Shown: positions 11,179 through 27,403 of the stretch, piece after piece
How the letters are laid out: each line of letters starts with the position of its first letter
Position numbering within the stretch: the stretch's first letter is position 1
Source of the DNA: Desulfurellales bacterium
Lineage (GTDB): Bacteria > Campylobacterota_A > Desulfurellia > Desulfurellales > Hippeaceae
Reading direction: 5' to 3'
DNA length: 64,000 bases
NCBI GenBank assembly: GCA_027035885.1
Contig: JALVTR010000171.1
Coordinates: 1 to 64,000, forward strand
Translations under genes and position numbers: made by a program
The notes under the pieces: model-generated
Databases searched by the model: none
What the model was told of the DNA's origin: nothing
What the model saw: only the letters and a program-made list of their open reading frames with translations

Positions 11179-11310
11179 CAGGACTTCAATGAGCATTAAG
11201 TTTCATAAATAATAACCGCTATGGCTTTGCTATTATTGAAACTTAAATTGTCTGAATTTGCTTAGGCAACAGATATCTTTTATTTCGGGGGTTAATTTTA
11301 AAATAAACAA

Positions 11311-11413
11311 AAAAGCCAATCTTGCGGTCACTCTCAAGATTGGCTTGATTACAGGCTTTTTCTGGCGCGCCCGAGAGGATTCGAACCTCTGACCCACGGA
11401 TTAGAAGTCCGTT
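11311..11413 (-). repeat. partial tRNA-Arg (3' half to anticodon arm) plus terminator; left attachment-site repeat of the island
   Basis: aaaagccaatcttgcggtcactctcaagattggc...tggcgcgcccgagaggattcgaacctctgacccacggattagaagtccgtt matches 27275-27375. Confidence 0.9.
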
Positions 11414-12235: not shown

Positions 12236-12799
12236 ATGGGTAAGAACAAAACATTATACATAATAGCAGGAGCAAACGGCAGCGGTAAAACAACCTTTGC
12301 TATGAATTTTGCAAAGCTACAAGGTCTAAGATTCATTAATGCCGATGAAATAGCAAGAGAGTATGACCCTAAAGATTTGCAGAAATATAAGATTAAAGCC
12401 GGAAAAAAGTTTTTTCAGGAATTAAACGAAGCACTGAATAAGCAAGAATCCTTTATCGTAGAGACAACGCTTTCCGGCAGATATCTGATAAAAGTTATAA
12501 AACGGGCGAAAAAATTAAATTTCAAGATATCTCTAATTTATCTTTTTTTGGAAACCAAAATGGAAAATGTCTATCGTGTGAAAAACAGAGTTTTGAAAGG
12601 CGGTCACAATGTTCCTACTCAGGATATCTTAAGAAGGTATGAAAGAAGTCGAGATTTATTTGAAAATGTATATAAAAATATGGTTGACGAATGGATGCTG
12701 GTTTTCAACGGAGATGATAGCTTTGAATTTGTAGAAACTCAGGGTACGGTTTATAATGAAGAGCTGAAGAAATTGTTTTATCAGGAGTGGAAAAAATGA
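12236..12799 (+). CDS. zeta-toxin-like P-loop kinase
   Basis: 'LYIIAGANGSGKTTFAMNFA...FINADEIARE'; 187 aa. Confidence 0.85.
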   Translation: MGKNKTLYIIAGANGSGKTTFAMNFAKLQGLRFINADEIAREYDPKDLQKYKIKAGKKFFQELNEALNKQESFIVETTLSGRYLIKVIKRAKKLNFKISLIYLFLETKMENVYRVKNRVLKGGHNVPTQDILRRYERSRDLFENVYKNMVDEWMLVFNGDDSFEFVETQGTVYNEELKKLFYQEWKK

Positions 12800-13129
12800 A
12801 TAATCTTGAGGTTATGATATTAAAAATCGGCAACAAAGCCGTTAAGGATGCACAAAAAGAAAGCTTAAGAAAAGGCATAGCAAATGTTTACAGCAAAAAT
12901 AAGCAGCTTTTCTTTCAACTGCCTAACGGTGAGATAACACAAGAAATACCAAAAGAGTATCTGGATATTCAGCTGATTGGTGATAGTGAAAAAGATGTGG
13001 AGTTGTAAAAGCAGATAAAAGGGATAGATGCTGAATGCTTAAATACAAAAATACTATTTTATTTTGCAAAGAGAGCATTTTATTTGGTGTTGGAAGGAAA
13101 AGTTTAGAGACTTGACTAATAGTGTTCCA
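12791..13129 (+). repeat. 339-bp near-identical duplication, copy 1 (small gene + 3' noncoding tail)
   Basis: Aligns without gaps to 15661-15999 at a constant offset of 2870. Confidence 0.92.
12796..13008 (+). CDS. small partner protein (putative antitoxin/immunity or chaperone), copy 1
   Basis: MNNLEVMILKIGNKAVKDAQKESLRKGIANVYSKNKQLFFQLPNGEITQEIPKEYLDIQLIGDSEKDVEL; ATGA overlap with zeta-like gene. Confidence 0.75.
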   Translation: MNNLEVMILKIGNKAVKDAQKESLRKGIANVYSKNKQLFFQLPNGEITQEIPKEYLDIQLIGDSEKDVEL

Positions 13130-13165
13130 CAGTATAAGTATATGAAAGCGTATATTTAATAAATT

Positions 13166-13172
13166 GTTAGGC
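13166..13172 (+). other. attC 3'-end-like core site (GTTAGGC)
   Basis: tatttaataaattGTTAGGC, similar to ggttcaatgaattGTTATGT at 16030. Confidence 0.35.
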
Positions 13173-15660: not shown

Positions 15661-15999
15661 AAAAAATGAATGATTTTGAAGATTTGATATTAAAAATCGG
15701 CAACAAAGCCGTTAAGGATGCACAGAAAGAAAGCTTGAAAAAAGGAATAGCAAATGTTTACAGCAAAAATAAGCAGCTTTTCTTTCAACTGCCTAACGGT
15801 GAGATAACCCAAGAAATACCAAAAGAATATTTGGATATTCAGCTGATTGGTGAAGGTGAAAAAGATGTGGAGTTGTAAAAGCAGATAAAAGGGATAGATG
15901 CTGAATGCTTAAATACAAAAATACTATTTTATTTTGCAAAGAGAGCATTTTATTTGGTGTTGGAAGGAAAAGTTTAGAGACTTGACTAATAGTGTTCCA
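15661..15999 (+). repeat. 339-bp near-identical duplication, copy 2
   Basis: Matches 12791-13129 at a constant offset. Confidence 0.92.
15666..15878 (+). CDS. small partner protein, copy 2, downstream of fic
   Basis: MNDFEDLILKIGNKAVKDAQKESLKKGIANVYSKNKQLFFQLPNGEITQEIPKEYLDIQLIGEGEKDVEL. Confidence 0.75.
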   Translation: MNDFEDLILKIGNKAVKDAQKESLKKGIANVYSKNKQLFFQLPNGEITQEIPKEYLDIQLIGEGEKDVEL

Positions 16000-16029
16000 T
16001 AATGTATGAAAGTGTAGGTTCAATGAATT

Positions 16030-16036
16030 GTTATGT
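16030..16036 (+). other. attC 3'-end-like core site (GTTATGT)
   Basis: aggttcaatgaattGTTATGT; ATG of next gene at 16052. Confidence 0.35.
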
Positions 16037-16897: not shown

Positions 16898-16971
16898 ACA
16901 TAACAGAATCTAAACCTATGTTTGTAGATTTGCTGCGTTCTTTGTGTTTAGGTGTATGGTTCTCTGTTAAG
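16898..16971 (+). other. attC-like site 3
   Basis: aTAACAGAatctAAACC...GGTTcTCTGTTAag imperfect stem ending the preceding gene unit. Confidence 0.35.
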
Positions 16972-17330
16972 AAGAAGATAAACTATGCTCAATAACCTTT
17001 ATCTCTTCCACTTCTTTCATCTTTGCTAAGTTTTCGAAAACTGGGCTGTCTTTGATTTGATAAAAAGCATTGTCTATAATTTTTTGTTTTTCGTTGTCGC
17101 TCATTTTTTCTTTTATTTCTGGTAGATTGCCAAGATGCTTTATTATTTCGCAGCCGGATTTTTTTATTTCTTCTTTAAAATATAACTCATAAACCATTCC
17201 GTCTATTATTTGCTCGAAATAGAAGCTTTGGGTGTCGTTTTTTTTGCTTAAACTCTTAGCAATCATCTTATCATTAAAAATTACTAAACGTCCCAAAATT
17301 ATTAGGGCTCTTAATCTTTTTTATCATCAT
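16967..17330 (-). pseudogene. third gene of methylase/helicase operon: C-terminal tail-like protein, apparently frameshifted near its start (or TTG start at 17296)
   Basis: MMIKKIKSPNNFG|RLVIFNDKMIAKSLSKKNDTQSFYFEQIIDGMVYELYFKEEIKKSGCEIIKHLGNLPEI...; RBS ggggagcttaag resembles that of the methylase gene. Confidence 0.5.
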
Positions 17331-17331
17331 C

Positions 17332-20300
17332 TTAAGCTCCCCTCTCCACAATTTTTATCTCTTCCTCACTTAATCCATATAGTTTATAAACCAATTGGTC
17401 TATTTGCTTTTGATACTCTTTTACCTTTGCTTGTTTTTGCGGATTTTCAAGATAGTCGTCGGATTGAGTAAGGGAAAGGATTTTGTTGACGAGGTCTATA
17501 AAAGGTTGTTGTTGAGGTTGTGTAATTATCTTTATGGGGAGCTTTTTTAAATCGTCAGGATAAAAGCCTAATTTACTTCTTCTAACTGAGTCTAAAAATT
17601 TATATGCCCATTTGGAATTTAATATTGCCAACAAATATTTTAAATTAAATTGTTCTGAATATTTTTCCAATTTTTCTCTTAAAAATTGTATGTGTTTAGT
17701 TTGAAAATCTTTCTTAATACTCATTTCAATGCTTCTATTATTGACTCCTTTTAAATCTTTCCATAAAACTGATACTGTAATACTATGATTACAAAGCAAA
17801 CCTGTATTATCATAAATAGCTCCTGTCATTCCACCCATCATTATCTTGGGAGGAATGTAAAGCTCTGGAAAGGTTGGCCTTCGTATTTTTTTAGGTACTC
17901 TTTGCGTGTTCCATTCAAGATATTTTATTTTTTCAATAGTATATTTACTCATCCATTTTGCTTCTAAATATTTTCTGGAATGAATCTTATCTTCTCTATC
18001 AGATATTAAATCGTTTTTGTTAAATTCACCTTTTGCAAATTTCTCATGAGCATTTAACACCATTCCTACACTTACATAACAGATTTCTCCCCAACTTAAA
18101 GTATTTAAAAGGTCTCCTATAACCTTATTTTCACTATCTAATTTAAAAGTATTTTCCCCCATCTCTAACTGTTTTTTTGAAGGTAAAATAATTTGATTCT
18201 CCCATTTTTCTAAGTGCTTTATTCGTAACGGTATGTGATTCGGATTTATTTCTTTTTTAAGTTCAATAATTATATTTCTTACCTCTGCTTCAAAAATTTT
18301 TAAGTCTGAACAGAAATTTATTCTATTTATAACAGCATTATTAAGAAAGTATTCGTGTGATTTTATTGCATACTTAGATGTCATATAAGCATCCGGTATT
18401 ATATACTCAAGAATTCCCCGTGGAGCAAGTAATTGGAATCCTTTTTCAATAAATGCTACATATAAGTCCCACTTTTCCCATAATGTCTTGTAAGTATTTA
18501 GTTTTTTTATTGCCTTTCTCTGTTCTTTTATATCTGGATTGTCAGCTCTAACGTATGGTGGGTTAGCAATCACTATATCAAAACCACCCTTTTGGTGGAA
18601 CACCTCAGAAAAATATACTTCAAAATCAAATTTTTTATGTCCCATTGTAATATTGCTTATCAATTCCTCAATCTTACTTTTATACTCCTGCTTCTTTGCT
18701 GGATCGGTTTCTTTGAAATAAAGTGGTTTTAATTTCTCCAGTTCATAAAACAATTTCCAATTCAAGACATCTTTTTCCACTCCTACAAGAGAATTACCTT
18801 GTACAATCTTATAATCCAGATTAGGCAGTGGTTTAATGTTATCAATATTCTCTTCATCAACCACCAAAGACAGCCAGAGGCGGAGTTTGGCGATTTCAAC
18901 CGCGCTTTCGTCTATATCCACACCATAGATGGATTTTTCAATTGCGTTTGCCTTGAAACAGTAGTCGCTTCTATCTTTTTTATCGTCTATAAATTCCGTT
19001 AAGATATTGCGCAACCTAACAATTTCATTCATTACGCCGACAGGGAAAGCTCCCGAGCCTACGGCAGGGTCGCAGATTTTGATTTTCTCAAGAGCGTTAT
19101 CTATAAATTTTGCGTTTTTTCGTATGCTCTCAGGTATACCGTGTTTATATTTTCCACCTTCTTTGAGTTCTCCGTTACTAAGCGCTTTTTCTATTTCAAT
19201 TATGTGTTCGCCATAATGGATAAAAATTTCCAAATCTTCTTTGATTGACATCAATGCTTTTTCTTCAAACGGCAGCTTTGATAATCCTTTTTTTTGCTTA
19301 ATTTCAAAAAGCGGCTGCTTACCCTTATTTTTTAAAATGATCTTTTCAAACTCATTCAAAAGGTAGTATAACAGACTTTGCTGCGTCATATAATGAACTA
19401 TTGCTCTTGGTGTGTAAAATGCACCGCTATTTTTTCTCTCTTTCACCTCAAGCATTCTTTCAAACACCTTGCCAAGCATCTCAGGGTCTATTGCAACCTC
19501 TTTTTCGAGCGGTTCATCTTCCTTTACGGTAAAGTTGAATAAATCGAAAATATCAAGTATCCCACTGCCTTCGTCGTTATCATCTGTTTTATTGGAAAAA
19601 ATGCTGTTTGGTATAACAATATCTGTTTTCTCCCAGTCATAAAAATTTATCGGGTCAAACAGACCGCCGTTTAGAAACGGGATTCGGCAGTTGAATTTTT
19701 TGTAGAAATCCGTATCCCTCTTTTTACTTAGGGCATCGTAAAACAAAAACTCCAAGTAATCGTTGAAAAAGTTTTCGTTGCTGGATTTTGCTTGATTAAA
19801 AAGGTTTCTTAGAAAGTTTCTGTCGCCTTCTCCGTAGGATTGACCCTGCTTTAAGCCAAGCCAGCCCTTTCTTTGTAAAAAGTAGAGAAAAACAATCTGT
19901 CCGAGGAGCTTTTTTGCAAAGTGGAGAGTGTCAATTTTTTTTATTTCAAATTCCTTTTTTATTATCTCATCATTAGCAACAATCTTGTCTAACTCATCTT
20001 TCAGATTAAAAAGCTGAGCCTTGTATCTTTCGAAAAACTCCTCAGAAACAGATTCTATATTGAAGGCTTCTTCCAAATCAGATAAGTATGGTGGGTTATC
20101 GTCTTTCAATATTCCTACAAGCTGTTTTTGTGCTGTGTGGCTTTTGCCTTTTTCGCCTACCAAGAAAGAAGAAAGTTTGGCGGGTGTCAGTTCATCTTGT
20201 CCTTTTTGCAGGCTGTATTGCATTTTTATCAGAGAAAAACGCCAATCGGGTGATTTTTGACTGTAAAACGCCACCAATCCGGCATCTTTAAATTCACCGC

Positions 20301-20622
20301 CGCGGGAACCGTTTAGATACCATCGAATAAAATTTCTCTGGGACGAGCGGGCAAATTCTACTGAGTGTTCTCTTTTTAACTCGACAATTAAAACATCGGT
20401 TATGTTTCCTTCTTTATCCTCAAATTTACCGATACGCTCCATTTTTCGTATTATGTTTTGATATGCTTTCGGTATAAGGTTTCCTGTGTATGCTCCGCCG
20501 TTTCCAAAAGGTTTTATTTCAATGTTTTTTAGAAGATTTTTCACAAAGTATGTGTATTTTTCCTTATCAAAGGTATTTTCAAAAACCTCTTTAATAATCT
20601 TTTTTGCTTCGTATTCTTTCAT
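17332..20622 (-). CDS. Eco57I-class (type IIG-like) DNA methyltransferase/restriction protein
   Basis: 'ICDPAVGSGAFPVGV', 'IANPPYVRADN', N-terminal 'TDVLIVELKRE' nuclease-like; 1096 aa. Confidence 0.9.
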   Translation of the reverse strand: MKEYEAKKIIKEVFENTFDKEKYTYFVKNLLKNIEIKPFGNGGAYTGNLIPKAYQNIIRKMERIGKFEDKEGNITDVLIVELKREHSVEFARSSQRNFIRWYLNGSRGGEFKDAGLVAFYSQKSPDWRFSLIKMQYSLQKGQDELTPAKLSSFLVGEKGKSHTAQKQLVGILKDDNPPYLSDLEEAFNIESVSEEFFERYKAQLFNLKDELDKIVANDEIIKKEFEIKKIDTLHFAKKLLGQIVFLYFLQRKGWLGLKQGQSYGEGDRNFLRNLFNQAKSSNENFFNDYLEFLFYDALSKKRDTDFYKKFNCRIPFLNGGLFDPINFYDWEKTDIVIPNSIFSNKTDDNDEGSGILDIFDLFNFTVKEDEPLEKEVAIDPEMLGKVFERMLEVKERKNSGAFYTPRAIVHYMTQQSLLYYLLNEFEKIILKNKGKQPLFEIKQKKGLSKLPFEEKALMSIKEDLEIFIHYGEHIIEIEKALSNGELKEGGKYKHGIPESIRKNAKFIDNALEKIKICDPAVGSGAFPVGVMNEIVRLRNILTEFIDDKKDRSDYCFKANAIEKSIYGVDIDESAVEIAKLRLWLSLVVDEENIDNIKPLPNLDYKIVQGNSLVGVEKDVLNWKLFYELEKLKPLYFKETDPAKKQEYKSKIEELISNITMGHKKFDFEVYFSEVFHQKGGFDIVIANPPYVRADNPDIKEQRKAIKKLNTYKTLWEKWDLYVAFIEKGFQLLAPRGILEYIIPDAYMTSKYAIKSHEYFLNNAVINRINFCSDLKIFEAEVRNIIIELKKEINPNHIPLRIKHLEKWENQIILPSKKQLEMGENTFKLDSENKVIGDLLNTLSWGEICYVSVGMVLNAHEKFAKGEFNKNDLISDREDKIHSRKYLEAKWMSKYTIEKIKYLEWNTQRVPKKIRRPTFPELYIPPKIMMGGMTGAIYDNTGLLCNHSITVSVLWKDLKGVNNRSIEMSIKKDFQTKHIQFLREKLEKYSEQFNLKYLLAILNSKWAYKFLDSVRRSKLGFYPDDLKKLPIKIITQPQQQPFIDLVNKILSLTQSDDYLENPQKQAKVKEYQKQIDQLVYKLYGLSEEEIKIVERGA

Positions 20623-20629
20623 AAGCTCC

Positions 20630-23600
20630 CTACTTTAATAAATATTCTGACAATATAACTTCCTTTGGACTGTTTAGAGAAATATCCTGTGCTGTTTGTA
20701 CCTTGTTAAATAACTGACTTGGTAAATTTCTCTTAATAATAGCGAGTATTTTCGCAGGGTTTTTCTCACCGTTTATACCGTCGAAAATTTTCTTAGCTGT
20801 TTTTTTAGGCATTGAACCATCTTCAATTAATTTTCTAACTCTCTCGATATATTCATCGTCTATTTCAGTAAAGCCGTCGTATTTTCTCATTTCTTTCGAT
20901 TTTAATATTTTCAAAATCCTTACAGCATTATCTCTTCCGCCTTTTCTGGGCATTTCTTGTTCTATAATATCCTCGCTTAAATCCGAATCTATTTTTAATT
21001 TGTTTTTGGCTAATAAATCGTAAAATTGTTTTGGAAGTTTATGTGCTTTTGTTTTCTCAGTTGCTTCAAACAATTTTGCAGATGTTAAGAAATCGAGCTC
21101 TATACTCCCTTGCTCGTTTGACAAATAAAATTTTTCGAGTTTCCCTTTTCTGAAATAGGTTATAAGTGAATCTTGAAACTCTTCATATTTGGATGATGTT
21201 TTTCTTGCCACTCTTGCTTTTTTTGGCAGGTTCTTTATCTGTGCAAAAAGCTCTTTGTTGTTATCTCTTATATTTTCAATAATTTTTAGATATTTTAATT
21301 CGCTTTCTTCTCCTTCTTCGTCGCCAAGGATGAAATCCTTAGAGGTTAATCTATCAAAAAGCTCAAAAGATTTTATCTCTTCACCGTCTGTTAAGAGTTT
21401 TGCATCATTTCCCAGCATCTCTATGAAATATTTAATTTTGGCAATAGCTGCCTCTTTCAGTTTTATGATGCTGTTTGCTTCTTCTGTCGGGAAAAAGTTA
21501 TAAATGTATATTTCTTTAAAAGGTGTATCAACACGATTTATTCGCCCGACACGCTGAATCATTCTCGTTGGATTCCAGGGAATGTCATAATTTATCACAA
21601 CATTTGAGCGATGCAGATTTACACCTTCGGATAAAACTTCAGTTGTTACAATTATGCGATAATCATCCTTTTTATTTTGAGCTTTTGCATCAAAATTTGA
21701 AATAACCTTTTTAAGATCTGTGTCGTTTGAACCGCCATGATAGATTAAAATCTTTTCCTTTAAGCTACGTTCTAACTCTTTTGATAGATATTCTGCTGTT
21801 TCTTTCGACTCTGTAAATATTATCAGTTTATTGTTTTTTAAGATGCTATCTTTATTTATTTTTTCAATAAAGCTTTTCAGTTTGGGGTCATAATTTATTT
21901 GAGACCACAAATCGTGTATTTTTCTCAATGTTTCTAAGTCAGACTTGATATCTGATTCAAGCTGGCTTGTAAAATTATCTTTTTTATATTCTTCGGCTTT
22001 CTCATCATCTATAAGACGTTGAATTTCGTCGAAATTATCATCAAGAAGGCAGTCAATTATTTTTTGCCAATACTTTTTGCTAATATAAACAAAACCTTTA
22101 TTGTAAGCCGATAAAAAATTTTCATAAGATTTTATAAACCTATTAAGTGTATGTTTAAAGGCATAGAAACTGCTTTCCAGTCTTTTTACAAGCAGAATTT
22201 TCATAAATCCGCCCATATTTCTTTGACTTGTTTTCTCCTGTGCGGTGAGTTCGTCTTTAAGGTACAGCAAGGGTGTGTATCTGGCGTATTTAAACTGTTT
22301 TTCGTCTGTAATCAGTTCAATTGTTTTTGTAAAAATCTCATTTAGCTTTCTATCTAATGCGTAATAAATTGGCTTTGGCGCTGAAACTTTAGGAAATTTC
22401 AAACCCTGTTGCTTTAGGTCATCTTTAAAGTATTTTTCAATCTCATTTCTTGTTCTGCGAACCATTATGTATTTTAAAACCTTATTTCTTATCTGCATGG
22501 CATTGTCTTTTACTATATCCATATACTCATCATAATCGGTTTTACGGTCTAAATTTTTTAATCTATTCTGCAAATAATTAAAGAATTTCTCAAGATTTTT
22601 AACACCGGGTATAGTGCTATTTTTTCCTTTCTGAAATAGTTTTATTTGCGCTAAAATATCCAAAGGAGAGTTATTTAACGGTGTTGCCGTTATTAAAATA
22701 ACTTTTTTCCCCCTGCAAATGGTTGCAAGTTTTTCATAAGTTACGGTGTTTTCATTTCTGAATTTATGCACTTCGTCAATAAAAACATTGTCATACAGCT
22801 CAGTGCCTCTTTCAATTATATCGTCAAGTTTGCCAACGGATTCAAATCTGGCTGCAATCTTAAAATCATTGAAAACATTAGGCCATGAGTTAGGGTTGTC
22901 CTCATTTAATAGAGCCGGAGAGGCAATAATAAGGTTTCTTCCAGGTAATTGATTGGCAAGAAGGGCTGCCATATAGGTTTTACCCAGACCAACTACATCT
23001 GCTAAAAATACTCCGCCATATTCTTCAAGAATTTTTTTGGCATTGATAACTGCCTGTTCCTGATACTGAAGTTTCATAAAATCCTTTGGCAAATAGTTGA
23101 AAATCAAGTCCGGGTCGAGACTTAAATCAGTTTTGAAATACTCATAGAGCAATTTTAGATAAATTTGATAAGGGGTTATTGTGTTGTTAAAATGGGTTTT
23201 ATTCATAACGGTTTCTGCATAATAATCTGTTATATCGACTGCTTCAGACCAGAGTTTCTCAAACCGTTCGAGGGCATATTTTACATCGGAGCTGTTTTTT
23301 AATTGGACATTAAATTCATAATTTGCAACAAGTCCTGATTCTGAAAAATTGCTTGAACCGGTAATCACGTTCCCGAAATCTCTGTCATCTTTATGATAAC
23401 GACTTATATACACCTTCGCATGTATTTTATTTGAAGGATGGGCTTTTATCTCAATTTTTCCTTCTTGCAACCATTCTATAAATTTTAGGATTCCATTCTC
23501 GGTCTCTTGTGTATCATCACTGTTTTCTATCTCTTCAATGACTTTTTTGCCGATAATTTCTTTTGTTCTCGAATGTGTTTCAAAATCCAGCTTATTTTTT

Positions 23601-23842
23601 GATCTGCTTGTTTCAATAATTTGGAAAGTTGGTTTATCGACATTTAAACCGACGAGGATTCGTATTTTTTCTATATTTTCGAAGGATTCATACAGCTGGT
23701 GAAAGCCGCTTATTCTAAAGTAACCGACTAAAACATCAAAAAACTGAACATCTTTCAGGATTGTTTTAAATCTATCAAGCAATGTCCCACTCTCGTCATT
23801 CGTGAAAAAAGTCAGATCATTATCGCTAAAACCTTTGTCCAT
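20630..23842 (-). CDS. PLD-nuclease/SNF2-type helicase fusion
   Basis: HKD 'IHAKVYISR...GNVITGSSNFSESGL'; helicase 'ADVVGLGKTYMAALLA', 'IDEVHKF', 'QRVGRINRVD'. Confidence 0.93.
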   Translation of the reverse strand: MDKGFSDNDLTFFTNDESGTLLDRFKTILKDVQFFDVLVGYFRISGFHQLYESFENIEKIRILVGLNVDKPTFQIIETSRSKNKLDFETHSRTKEIIGKKVIEEIENSDDTQETENGILKFIEWLQEGKIEIKAHPSNKIHAKVYISRYHKDDRDFGNVITGSSNFSESGLVANYEFNVQLKNSSDVKYALERFEKLWSEAVDITDYYAETVMNKTHFNNTITPYQIYLKLLYEYFKTDLSLDPDLIFNYLPKDFMKLQYQEQAVINAKKILEEYGGVFLADVVGLGKTYMAALLANQLPGRNLIIASPALLNEDNPNSWPNVFNDFKIAARFESVGKLDDIIERGTELYDNVFIDEVHKFRNENTVTYEKLATICRGKKVILITATPLNNSPLDILAQIKLFQKGKNSTIPGVKNLEKFFNYLQNRLKNLDRKTDYDEYMDIVKDNAMQIRNKVLKYIMVRRTRNEIEKYFKDDLKQQGLKFPKVSAPKPIYYALDRKLNEIFTKTIELITDEKQFKYARYTPLLYLKDELTAQEKTSQRNMGGFMKILLVKRLESSFYAFKHTLNRFIKSYENFLSAYNKGFVYISKKYWQKIIDCLLDDNFDEIQRLIDDEKAEEYKKDNFTSQLESDIKSDLETLRKIHDLWSQINYDPKLKSFIEKINKDSILKNNKLIIFTESKETAEYLSKELERSLKEKILIYHGGSNDTDLKKVISNFDAKAQNKKDDYRIIVTTEVLSEGVNLHRSNVVINYDIPWNPTRMIQRVGRINRVDTPFKEIYIYNFFPTEEANSIIKLKEAAIAKIKYFIEMLGNDAKLLTDGEEIKSFELFDRLTSKDFILGDEEGEESELKYLKIIENIRDNNKELFAQIKNLPKKARVARKTSSKYEEFQDSLITYFRKGKLEKFYLSNEQGSIELDFLTSAKLFEATEKTKAHKLPKQFYDLLAKNKLKIDSDLSEDIIEQEMPRKGGRDNAVRILKILKSKEMRKYDGFTEIDDEYIERVRKLIEDGSMPKKTAKKIFDGINGEKNPAKILAIIKRNLPSQLFNKVQTAQDISLNSPKEVILSEYLLK

Positions 23843-23967: not shown

Positions 23968-23993
23968 TTTTCACACCTCGCAAGTGTGCATTT
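23968..23993. repeat. interspersed repeat unit 1
   Basis: ttttCACACCTCGCAAGTGTGcatttt. Confidence 0.8.
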
Positions 23994-24069: not shown

Positions 24070-24296
24070 TTAAAGTAAATTTTTAAATTCTTCCACGGTT
24101 AGACCTGTTTCTTTTATTATTTTTCTTAGTGTTCCTTTTGCTATCTCGCTATGGTCTGGAACAACAATAGCCTGTGAGGATAAGCTATCTGACGTAAAAC
24201 CATATGGCTGCCCTTTTACCTGTCTTTTACATATCCGATTTTTGATAAGGCTGCCGCAACTTTACGACCTGATATCCTTGGAAGATCACTCATCCG
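24070..24296 (-). pseudogene. HicA toxin remnant (stop + frameshift)
   Basis: MSDLPRISGRKVAAALSKIGYVKDR*KGSHMVLR[fs]...VVPDHSEIAKGTLRKIIKETGLTVEEFKNLL. Confidence 0.8.
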
Positions 24297-24572: not shown

Positions 24573-24597
24573 TTTTCACACCTCGCAAGTGTGAATT
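24573..24597. repeat. interspersed repeat unit 2
   Basis: ttttCACACCTCGCAAGTGTGaatt. Confidence 0.8.
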
Positions 24598-24609: not shown

Positions 24610-25194
24610 TTATTTCTCAACTATCTTGTCAATCTCTTCTTGGACTTTCTCAGACAGAAATACTTTCATCAAAGATTGATAAGGAACGTCCTTTTTATTG
24701 GCTAAAAACTTCAGCTCATCCAATAAAGACTCAGAAAGCCTTAGAGAAATTGTTTTTGTGGATGGTTTTAGGTTGGGAAAAACAGCCTTTTTGGCTTTAT
24801 TCCAGTCTATATAGTCGGTAGAGTCGTGGACTGACCAAAATTCTCTTTCTTCATCTTCGTTTTTAAATTTTGGTATTTTTTTCATCTTTAAACTCCTCGT
24901 ACAGTTTTTTTCTTTTTTGCTCATATCCCTTGCGGATATAACTCTTATTTTTGAGTTTCTTATTGTGAAAACGATAAATAGTTCCCTGCCTAAATCGGTA
25001 TGACCCAGTGCATAAAATCTATCCTCAATGCCGGAGTGTTTATAATCAATATTAACAACAAACGGCAGATTAAAAAAGATCTGTTCGCACTCGCTGATAC
25101 TTACGCCGTGTTTAATCCAATTCTTATTTTCATTGCCGCTATCCCACTCAAAACCCTTAGCAGAATAAATTAATTGTTTTAAATTTTTATCCAT
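24610..25194 (-). CDS. BrnT-BrnA toxin-antitoxin in a single fused reading frame
   Basis: BrnT: FEWDSGNENKNWIKHGVSISECEQIFF...RVISARDMSKKEKN; then BrnA/CopG: MKKIPKFKNEDEEREFWSVHDSTDYIDW...ISLRLSESLLDELK. Confidence 0.8.
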   Translation of the reverse strand: MDKNLKQLIYSAKGFEWDSGNENKNWIKHGVSISECEQIFFNLPFVVNIDYKHSGIEDRFYALGHTDLGRELFIVFTIRNSKIRVISARDMSKKEKNCTRSLKMKKIPKFKNEDEEREFWSVHDSTDYIDWNKAKKAVFPNLKPSTKTISLRLSESLLDELKFLANKKDVPYQSLMKVFLSEKVQEEIDKIVEK

Positions 25195-25356: not shown

Positions 25357-25379
25357 TTCACACCTCGCAAGTGTGCATT
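25357..25379. repeat. interspersed repeat unit 3
   Basis: ttCACACCTCGCAAGTGTGcatt. Confidence 0.8.
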
Positions 25380-27261: not shown

Positions 27262-27274
27262 CAGGAGAAACTAA

Positions 27275-27403
<129 letters not shown>

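Follow-up and report, generated by a model that had tools for sequence, protein, structure and literature searches.

A recurrent PLD–SNF2 translocase and Eco57I-like methylase gene pair as a candidate two-gene restriction-modification-like defence in a Desulfurellales bacterium

The window analyzed here, positions 1–64,000 of contig JALVTR010000171.1 (GCA_027035885.1) from a Desulfurellales bacterium, contains three co-oriented open reading frames (ORFs) that a sequence-only reading had proposed as a possible compact restriction-like operon: a PLD–SNF2 helicase fusion (gene 1), an Eco57I-class methylase (gene 2), and a small tail protein (gene 3). All three were present on the minus strand at the span described. 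Recurrent pairing of genes 1 and 2 and conservation of their catalytic residues support such an operon, and we consider it probable (roughly 0.68) that the two genes encode an ATP-dependent restriction-modification-like defence, in which gene 2 would modify and recognise DNA and gene 1 would be the effector. The genes are arranged as follows:

20630–23842, minus strand: gene 1, a PLD (HKD) nuclease plus SNF2/RapA-like DNA translocase (ATG start, 1070 amino acids (aa); Pfam, PADLOC, AlphaFold2 (AF2) model)
17332–20622, minus strand: gene 2, an Eco57I/Type IIG-like N6-adenine methyltransferase with a C-terminal target recognition domain (TRD) (ATG start, 1096 aa; PADLOC, Pfam, PDB profiles)
16967–17330, minus strand: 'gene 3', an orphan, frame-broken TRD tail (homology to methylase C-termini)

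Gene 2 lies downstream of gene 1 across a gap of 7 nt, and a purine-rich sequence resembling a ribosome-binding site (RBS) precedes both ATGs. The matching RBSs reported for the three ORFs were confirmed for genes 1 and 2, but not for gene 3, whose 109-aa frame (16967–17296) starts at TTG and lacks an RBS.

A contig scan with the single gene 2 sequence returned one relative only, and a wider genome search was used instead. Among the 386 genomes of this search set, 20 besides the source genome carry the gene 2 subfamily, matched from the N-terminus with ~40–60% identity in the best segment. Gene 1, full-length or interrupted, adjoins gene 2 in 19 of these 20 genomes, which come from many families; the two genes are usually within ~35 bp of each other or overlap, and some pairs contain one or two inserted genes (Fic in locus L070 and, by eye, an MNT-HEPN-like pair in L080 and a REP-type transposase-like ORF in L075). 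Judged from gene order, this pairing far exceeds chance and defines a conserved two-gene unit. Seven of the eight close gene 2 contigs in IMG/VR also carry the intact pair, and in the remaining one (L103) gene 1 is represented by no more than 77 aa. Terminase, head, tail, or Mu-B-like phage genes lie beside the pair in L099, L100, L102, and L106, where it appears to be phage-carried defence cargo. Accessory genes found near the pair in relatives encode Fic, DUF3644, AIPR, AAA_13, and AlbA_2 proteins.

The fusion of an HKD (PLD) domain to a SNF2-type helicase in gene 1 was borne out by Pfam, which placed PLDc_2 at residues 96–198, SNF2(-rel_dom) at 332–475, and Helicase_C at 666–771. The best PADLOC model was C3a139 'HKD+Snf2' (2.6e-43), followed by DrmD (2.2e-39). 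Four catalytic motifs were located by residue conservation:

23348–23422, minus strand: gene 1 HKD active site, HAK (141–143) ... GSSN (162–165)
22976–22999, minus strand: gene 1 Walker A, DVVGLGKT (282–289)
22766–22777, minus strand: gene 1 DExH box, DEVH (356–359)
21533–21556, minus strand: gene 1 helicase motif VI, QRVGRINR (763–770)

The HKD residues H141, K143, G162, S163, N165, and E176, the Walker A residues 282–288, D356, E357, and H359 of the DExH box, and Q763, R764, G766, R767, and R770 of motif VI did not vary in alignments of 20 and of 18 homologues. The AF2 model of gene 1 (predicted local distance difference test, pLDDT, 82) gave structural matches to SNF2 motors, RapA, ZorD, and SauUSI, a PLD-SF2 restriction enzyme that it matched at ~1e-13.

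For gene 2, Eco57I-class methylase motifs and a possible N-terminal nuclease (DVLIVELK) had been proposed; the methylase motifs were conserved, and the nuclease motif was not. The relevant features are:

19051–19071, minus strand: gene 2 methylase motif I, DPAVGSG (518–524) (alignment)
18553–18564, minus strand: gene 2 methylase motif IV, NPPY (687–690) (alignment)
20143–20622, minus strand: gene 2 N-terminal domain, ~residues 1–160, the nuclease proposed by the sequence-only reading (AF2 model, alignment)
20374–20397, minus strand: 'DVLIVELK' of gene 2, with E81 not conserved

In the alignment of gene 2 homologues, D518, P519, A520, and G522–G524 of motif I and N687, P688, and P689 of motif IV were invariant, and Y690 was nearly so. 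Pfam assigned an Eco57I methylase domain to residues 564–777 (1.2e-35) and a weak TaqI_C match to 988–1030, and the methylase-TRD half matched solved adenine methyltransferases at 1.5e-42, with 7lni, 7qw5 (BseCI), BrxX, and TaqI among the PDB profile matches. Position 81, the Glu of ELK, is Lys in 7 of 23 homologues, Glu in 4, and many other residues in the rest, and an AF2 model of residues 1–240 (pLDDT 86.7) gave no match at E<=1e-3 in a PDB fold search. Because the ELK motif of gene 2 is not conserved, its N-terminal model lacks a PDB match, and the catalytic residues of gene 1 are conserved, the most likely site of cutting is gene 1, via its PLD domain.

The PADLOC model PDLC03596 REase_MTase_IIG matches gene 2 at 1.1e-219, and does so over the full length in relatives. 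This match, the domain that precedes the methylase, and locus L076, which carries gene 2 without gene 1, would be expected if gene 2 were a stand-alone Type IIG restriction enzyme and gene 1 an accessory helicase-nuclease degrading the cut DNA. We regard this explanation as unlikely, given that ExK is not conserved, that the N-terminal model finds no PDB match, that gene 1 adjoins gene 2 in 19 of 20 genomes, and that gene 1 co-evolves with the gene 2 core. The last point emerged from comparing the two genes with the C-terminal domain of gene 2:

17332–18225, minus strand: gene 2 TRD, ~residues 800–1096, exchangeable (identity comparison, G+C)

The G+C content of the TRD is 0.299, versus 0.354 in the core. 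Closely related systems share 55% identity in gene 1 and 52% in the gene 2 core, but 25% in the TRD half (last 400 residues). Over 325 pairs, identity in gene 1 correlated with that in the gene 2 core (r = 0.81), whereas the value for gene 1 versus the TRD was r = 0.06, a figure made noisier by the difficulty of aligning divergent TRDs. On these identity comparisons, gene 1 and the gene 2 core co-evolve and TRDs are exchanged independently.

Inverted repeats were found in four relatives. In L091, a Prevotella nigrescens plasmid, a 47-nt, 96% inverted repeat spans the codons of GFDIVIGNPPY; those of the others measure 291 nt (98%; L101), 100 nt (100%, plus further copies; L108), and 307 nt (89%; L110). 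Downstream, each of these loci has a TRD fragment in the opposite orientation together with a serine recombinase, identified as PF00239 in L101, L108, and L110 and, by annotation, as an Mpi-family invertase in L091. Of the four, L101 is closely related (46% identity in gene 1 and 49% in the gene 2 core). The four arrangements look like TRD shufflons with silent inverted TRD cassettes, and the specificity of these relatives is probably switchable via recombinase-linked TRD inversion. Within the 64-kb window, no invertase or TRD cassette was found.

TRD exchange and shufflons also bear on the possibility of abortive infection, in which an activated gene 1 would degrade nucleic acid generally and gene 2 would be its sensor and guard. 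Fic, DUF3644, and toxin-antitoxin-like genes often occur near or within the pair, as might be expected of such an effector; however, exchangeable TRDs imply sequence-specific self-marking, which plain suicide does not need, and we hold this explanation to be highly improbable.

We propose that gene 2 acts as a gamma-class N6-adenine methyltransferase whose TRD would pick a (probably non-palindromic) site and mark host DNA there. At an unmethylated site on incoming DNA, gene 2 would form a complex with gene 1, recruiting or activating it; gene 1 would then translocate along the duplex and cut with its PLD nuclease, probably as a dimer. The logic would be that of a Type ISP enzyme divided between two proteins, its Mrr-like nuclease swapped for a PLD, and specificity would evolve through TRD exchange. 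The defence context consists of a tRNA-Arg island with toxin-antitoxin genes, the accessory genes, and the phage-like contigs.

Several points weigh against this proposal. The defence role is drawn from context and homology. In L076, gene 1 is missing and another methylase lies upstream of gene 2. The N-terminal domain of gene 2 is conserved (D76, R92, R96, WRFS) and, having no recognised fold, may be an unrecognised nuclease. Finally, methylation of one strand of an asymmetric site would expose the host to self-attack after replication, so that a two-site or other rule would be needed.

The likeness to DISARM without DrmA/DrmB partners that had been pointed out was supported. DrmB (DUF1998/MZB, PF09369) was absent from the source genome, with control matches in 8 genomes, and the sole match of the DrmA model in the source genome was the helicase core of gene 1. 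Gene 1 scored 153.8 bits against the DrmD equivalog of NCBIfam (cut-off 610) and 157.9 bits against NF042964, the NCBIfam phospholipase D-like anti-phage protein (cut-off 1100), and gene 2 fell far below membership level for the DrmMI profile. DUF499 (PF04465) was absent from the source genome and from 17 of the 20 other carriers, with a control match in Thermotoga maritima; PglZ (PF08665) was absent from the source genome; and DUF3780 gave no match in the source genome or in the control genomes. Where DUF1998, PglZ, or DUF499 occurred in other carriers, they were never on the contig of the module, except in single-chromosome assemblies. Membership of DISARM, BREX, ARMADA, or the DUF499/BREX-related group was rejected, as DUF1998, PglZ, DUF499, and a separate DrmA were not found in the source genome. 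In PADLOC, the two halves of the pair have separate profiles. No name for the two-gene module was found in the literature searched; most subscription literature lay outside that search, and a prior description is possible.

Individual systems share parts of this architecture. DISARM class 1 (DrmD, DrmMI, DrmA, DrmB, DrmC) likewise combines a SNF2 helicase, a PLD nuclease, and an adenine methylase; here, however, the PLD is fused to the helicase, and DrmA and DrmB are missing. BREX-Related Type-2/Hma joins an HKD-SNF2 protein and an N6-methylase with DUF499 and DUF3780, the latter as a stand-alone gene in 98% of systems (PMC12839542). It resembles our locus in having an HKD fused N-terminally to a Swi2/Snf2 helicase and an N6-adenine methyltransferase in one operon, but our locus lacks the DUF499 ATPase, no DUF3780 gene was found in it, and the HmaA model scores gene 1 below C3a139 and DrmD. 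ARMADA has a BrxHII/RapA-like helicase adjoining a PglX-like methylase, together with YprA (PMC12458937); the source genome has no YprA helicase with DUF1998, and a PLD is not described on the first helicase of ARMADA. HKD-SF2 proteins with a CxC ATPase and DndE are also on record (PMC10853773). The Type ISP enzymes LlaBIII and LlaGI share this logical order of nuclease, translocase, gamma-methylase, and TRD (PMC3874165), but within a single polypeptide, whereas both the window and the relatives read encode two proteins, with a PLD in place of the Mrr-like nuclease; no LlaBIII structure was among the PDB profile matches of gene 2. Type IIG enzymes (Eco57I, MmeI) share the architecture of gene 2, with the methylase and the TRD on a single chain, and provide its strongest profile match; they differ in that the nuclease motif is not conserved in gene 2 and that gene 2 has a near-obligate PLD-SNF2 partner. 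The Type IV enzyme SauUSI similarly couples a PLD nuclease to an SF2 motor. SauUSI, however, targets modified DNA and is not known to have a methylase partner.

Because the tests of the source genome for DUF499, DUF1998, PglZ, and DrmA were negative, the class of the module is placed outside the named systems: it resembles DISARM, ARMADA, BREX-related systems, and Type ISP enzymes and appears to be a member of none, and is best called a variant of ATP-dependent restriction-modification. These comparisons leave room for an exclusion system of the DISARM/BREX kind, in which methylation would mark self and gene 1 would block or unwind phage DNA or its replication without a site-directed restriction nuclease; further partners may be encoded elsewhere. 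Gene 1 does score against DrmD, BrxHI/II, and DpdE, gene 2 scores against DrmMI and PglX, and DISARM class 1, ARMADA, and BREX-related systems all pair a helicase with a PglX-like protein (PMC12458937, PMC12839542). Nevertheless, DUF1998, PglZ, and DUF499 are missing from the source genome and the intact HKD residues of gene 1 favour cleavage, which makes exclusion quite unlikely in our view.

Beyond the restriction-modification-like reading of this locus, we tentatively suggest, at somewhat under even odds, that the pair represents a distinct, unnamed class: two-subunit ATP-dependent restriction with a PLD-translocase effector and a nuclease-less methylase/TRD guide, widespread in bacterial families and carried on phages, with some TRDs invertible by recombinases, which current tools split into 'Type IIG' and an unexplained helicase. 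If so, many 'stand-alone Type IIG' genes would be half of an ATP-dependent two-gene system, and defence censuses would therefore miscount both halves. The pair would also be a minimal version of the helicase-methylase combination common to DISARM, ARMADA, and BREX-related systems, without extra ATPases, making the contribution of the extra parts in those systems testable. The TRD shufflons, together with orphan TRD tails, illustrate routes by which a recognition site may change.

Such a tail is found at the end of the operon. Gene 3 had been described as a small tail protein of 110–120 aa; it proved to be frame-broken and homologous to methylase C-termini. An ATG at 17330, preceded by the RBS-like GGAGAGGGGAGCTTAAG, begins a frame of just 18 codons (MMIKKIKSPNNFGTFSNF-stop), and by inspection this frame and the 109-aa frame join at a T5 run near 17275–17279, where the break may be real or may stem from the assembly. 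Over its length, the 109-aa frame shows homology to C-terminal tails of Eco57I-class enzymes of 1.1–1.3 kaa, matching the C-termini of those in L070/L093, L094, L095, and L097 at 8e-10 to 6e-5; a match in L098 was discarded as a repeat protein. Searches of plasmids and of 24 further genomes from the phylum found no homologue. Since its matches in distant genomes are the C-termini of large methylases, gene 3 was rejected as a subunit in its own right.

A tail-profile scan revealed orphan gene 2 tails downstream of gene 2, on the same strand, in six other loci (L024, L027, L069, L072, L075, L084); the scan covered 20,202 frames and found no unlinked orphan tails elsewhere. Short-frame matches in L077, L108, and L128 are pieces of split or rearranged gene 2 copies, and the match of gene 3 itself is circular, as gene 3 was included in the profile. 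At the DNA level, some of the 3'-terminal gene 2 sequence recurs downstream as a direct repeat in L027, L072, L084, and L100; defence-like genes separate the copies in L072 and L084. Because of these orphan tails and repeated 3' ends in relatives, we interpret gene 3 as probably a non-functional leftover scar of TRD replacement.

Similar proteins are encoded downstream of gene 2 in L024 (14715–15443), L029 (15863–16636), L084 (14313–15086), and L085 (2366–3115); the one in L024 is DUF2851-like by Pfam. Three of these four loci (L024, L029, L084) have the EERKEVYWAVAELVK type of TRD tail.

Because neither gene 1 nor gene 2 was found in the same-genus genomes examined, the module was probably acquired laterally in this genome. 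Two copies of a 110-nt direct repeat (93.6%; 11305–11413 and 27268–27377) bracket the operon, and this repeat contains the 3' portion of tRNA-Arg(tct). The 16-kb stretch between them also carries zeta-toxin-like, Fic, BrnT-BrnA, and HigA genes and, by eye, HicA/HicB-like frames. It looks like a tRNA-integrated defence island, with the repeats as likely att sites. No integrase was seen, an empty attachment site was not demonstrable in same-genus genomes, where the regions are too divergent, and sequences like the 110-nt repeat also follow other tRNAs.

Three identical copies of a palindromic sequence, TTCACACCTCGCAAGTGTG, occur at 23970–23988, 24575–24593, and 25357–25375, one between each of the HicAB-like, BrnTA, and HigA cassettes, where none is expected by chance. 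The genome holds five copies when 2 mismatches are allowed, and some are present in relatives; the sequence folds into a short hairpin and may be a cassette-boundary element or a terminator. The BrnT toxin and BrnA antitoxin form one 194-aa ORF (24610–25194), either a natural fusion or a frameshift, and the HicA-like frame (~24100–24290) beside the HicB-like gene appears to be interrupted by a stop (VKDR*KGSHMVLRQ). A 379-nt duplication, 93% identical, was found at 12791–13169 and 15661–16033, each copy carrying a small ORF (KIGNKAVKDAQKESL...).

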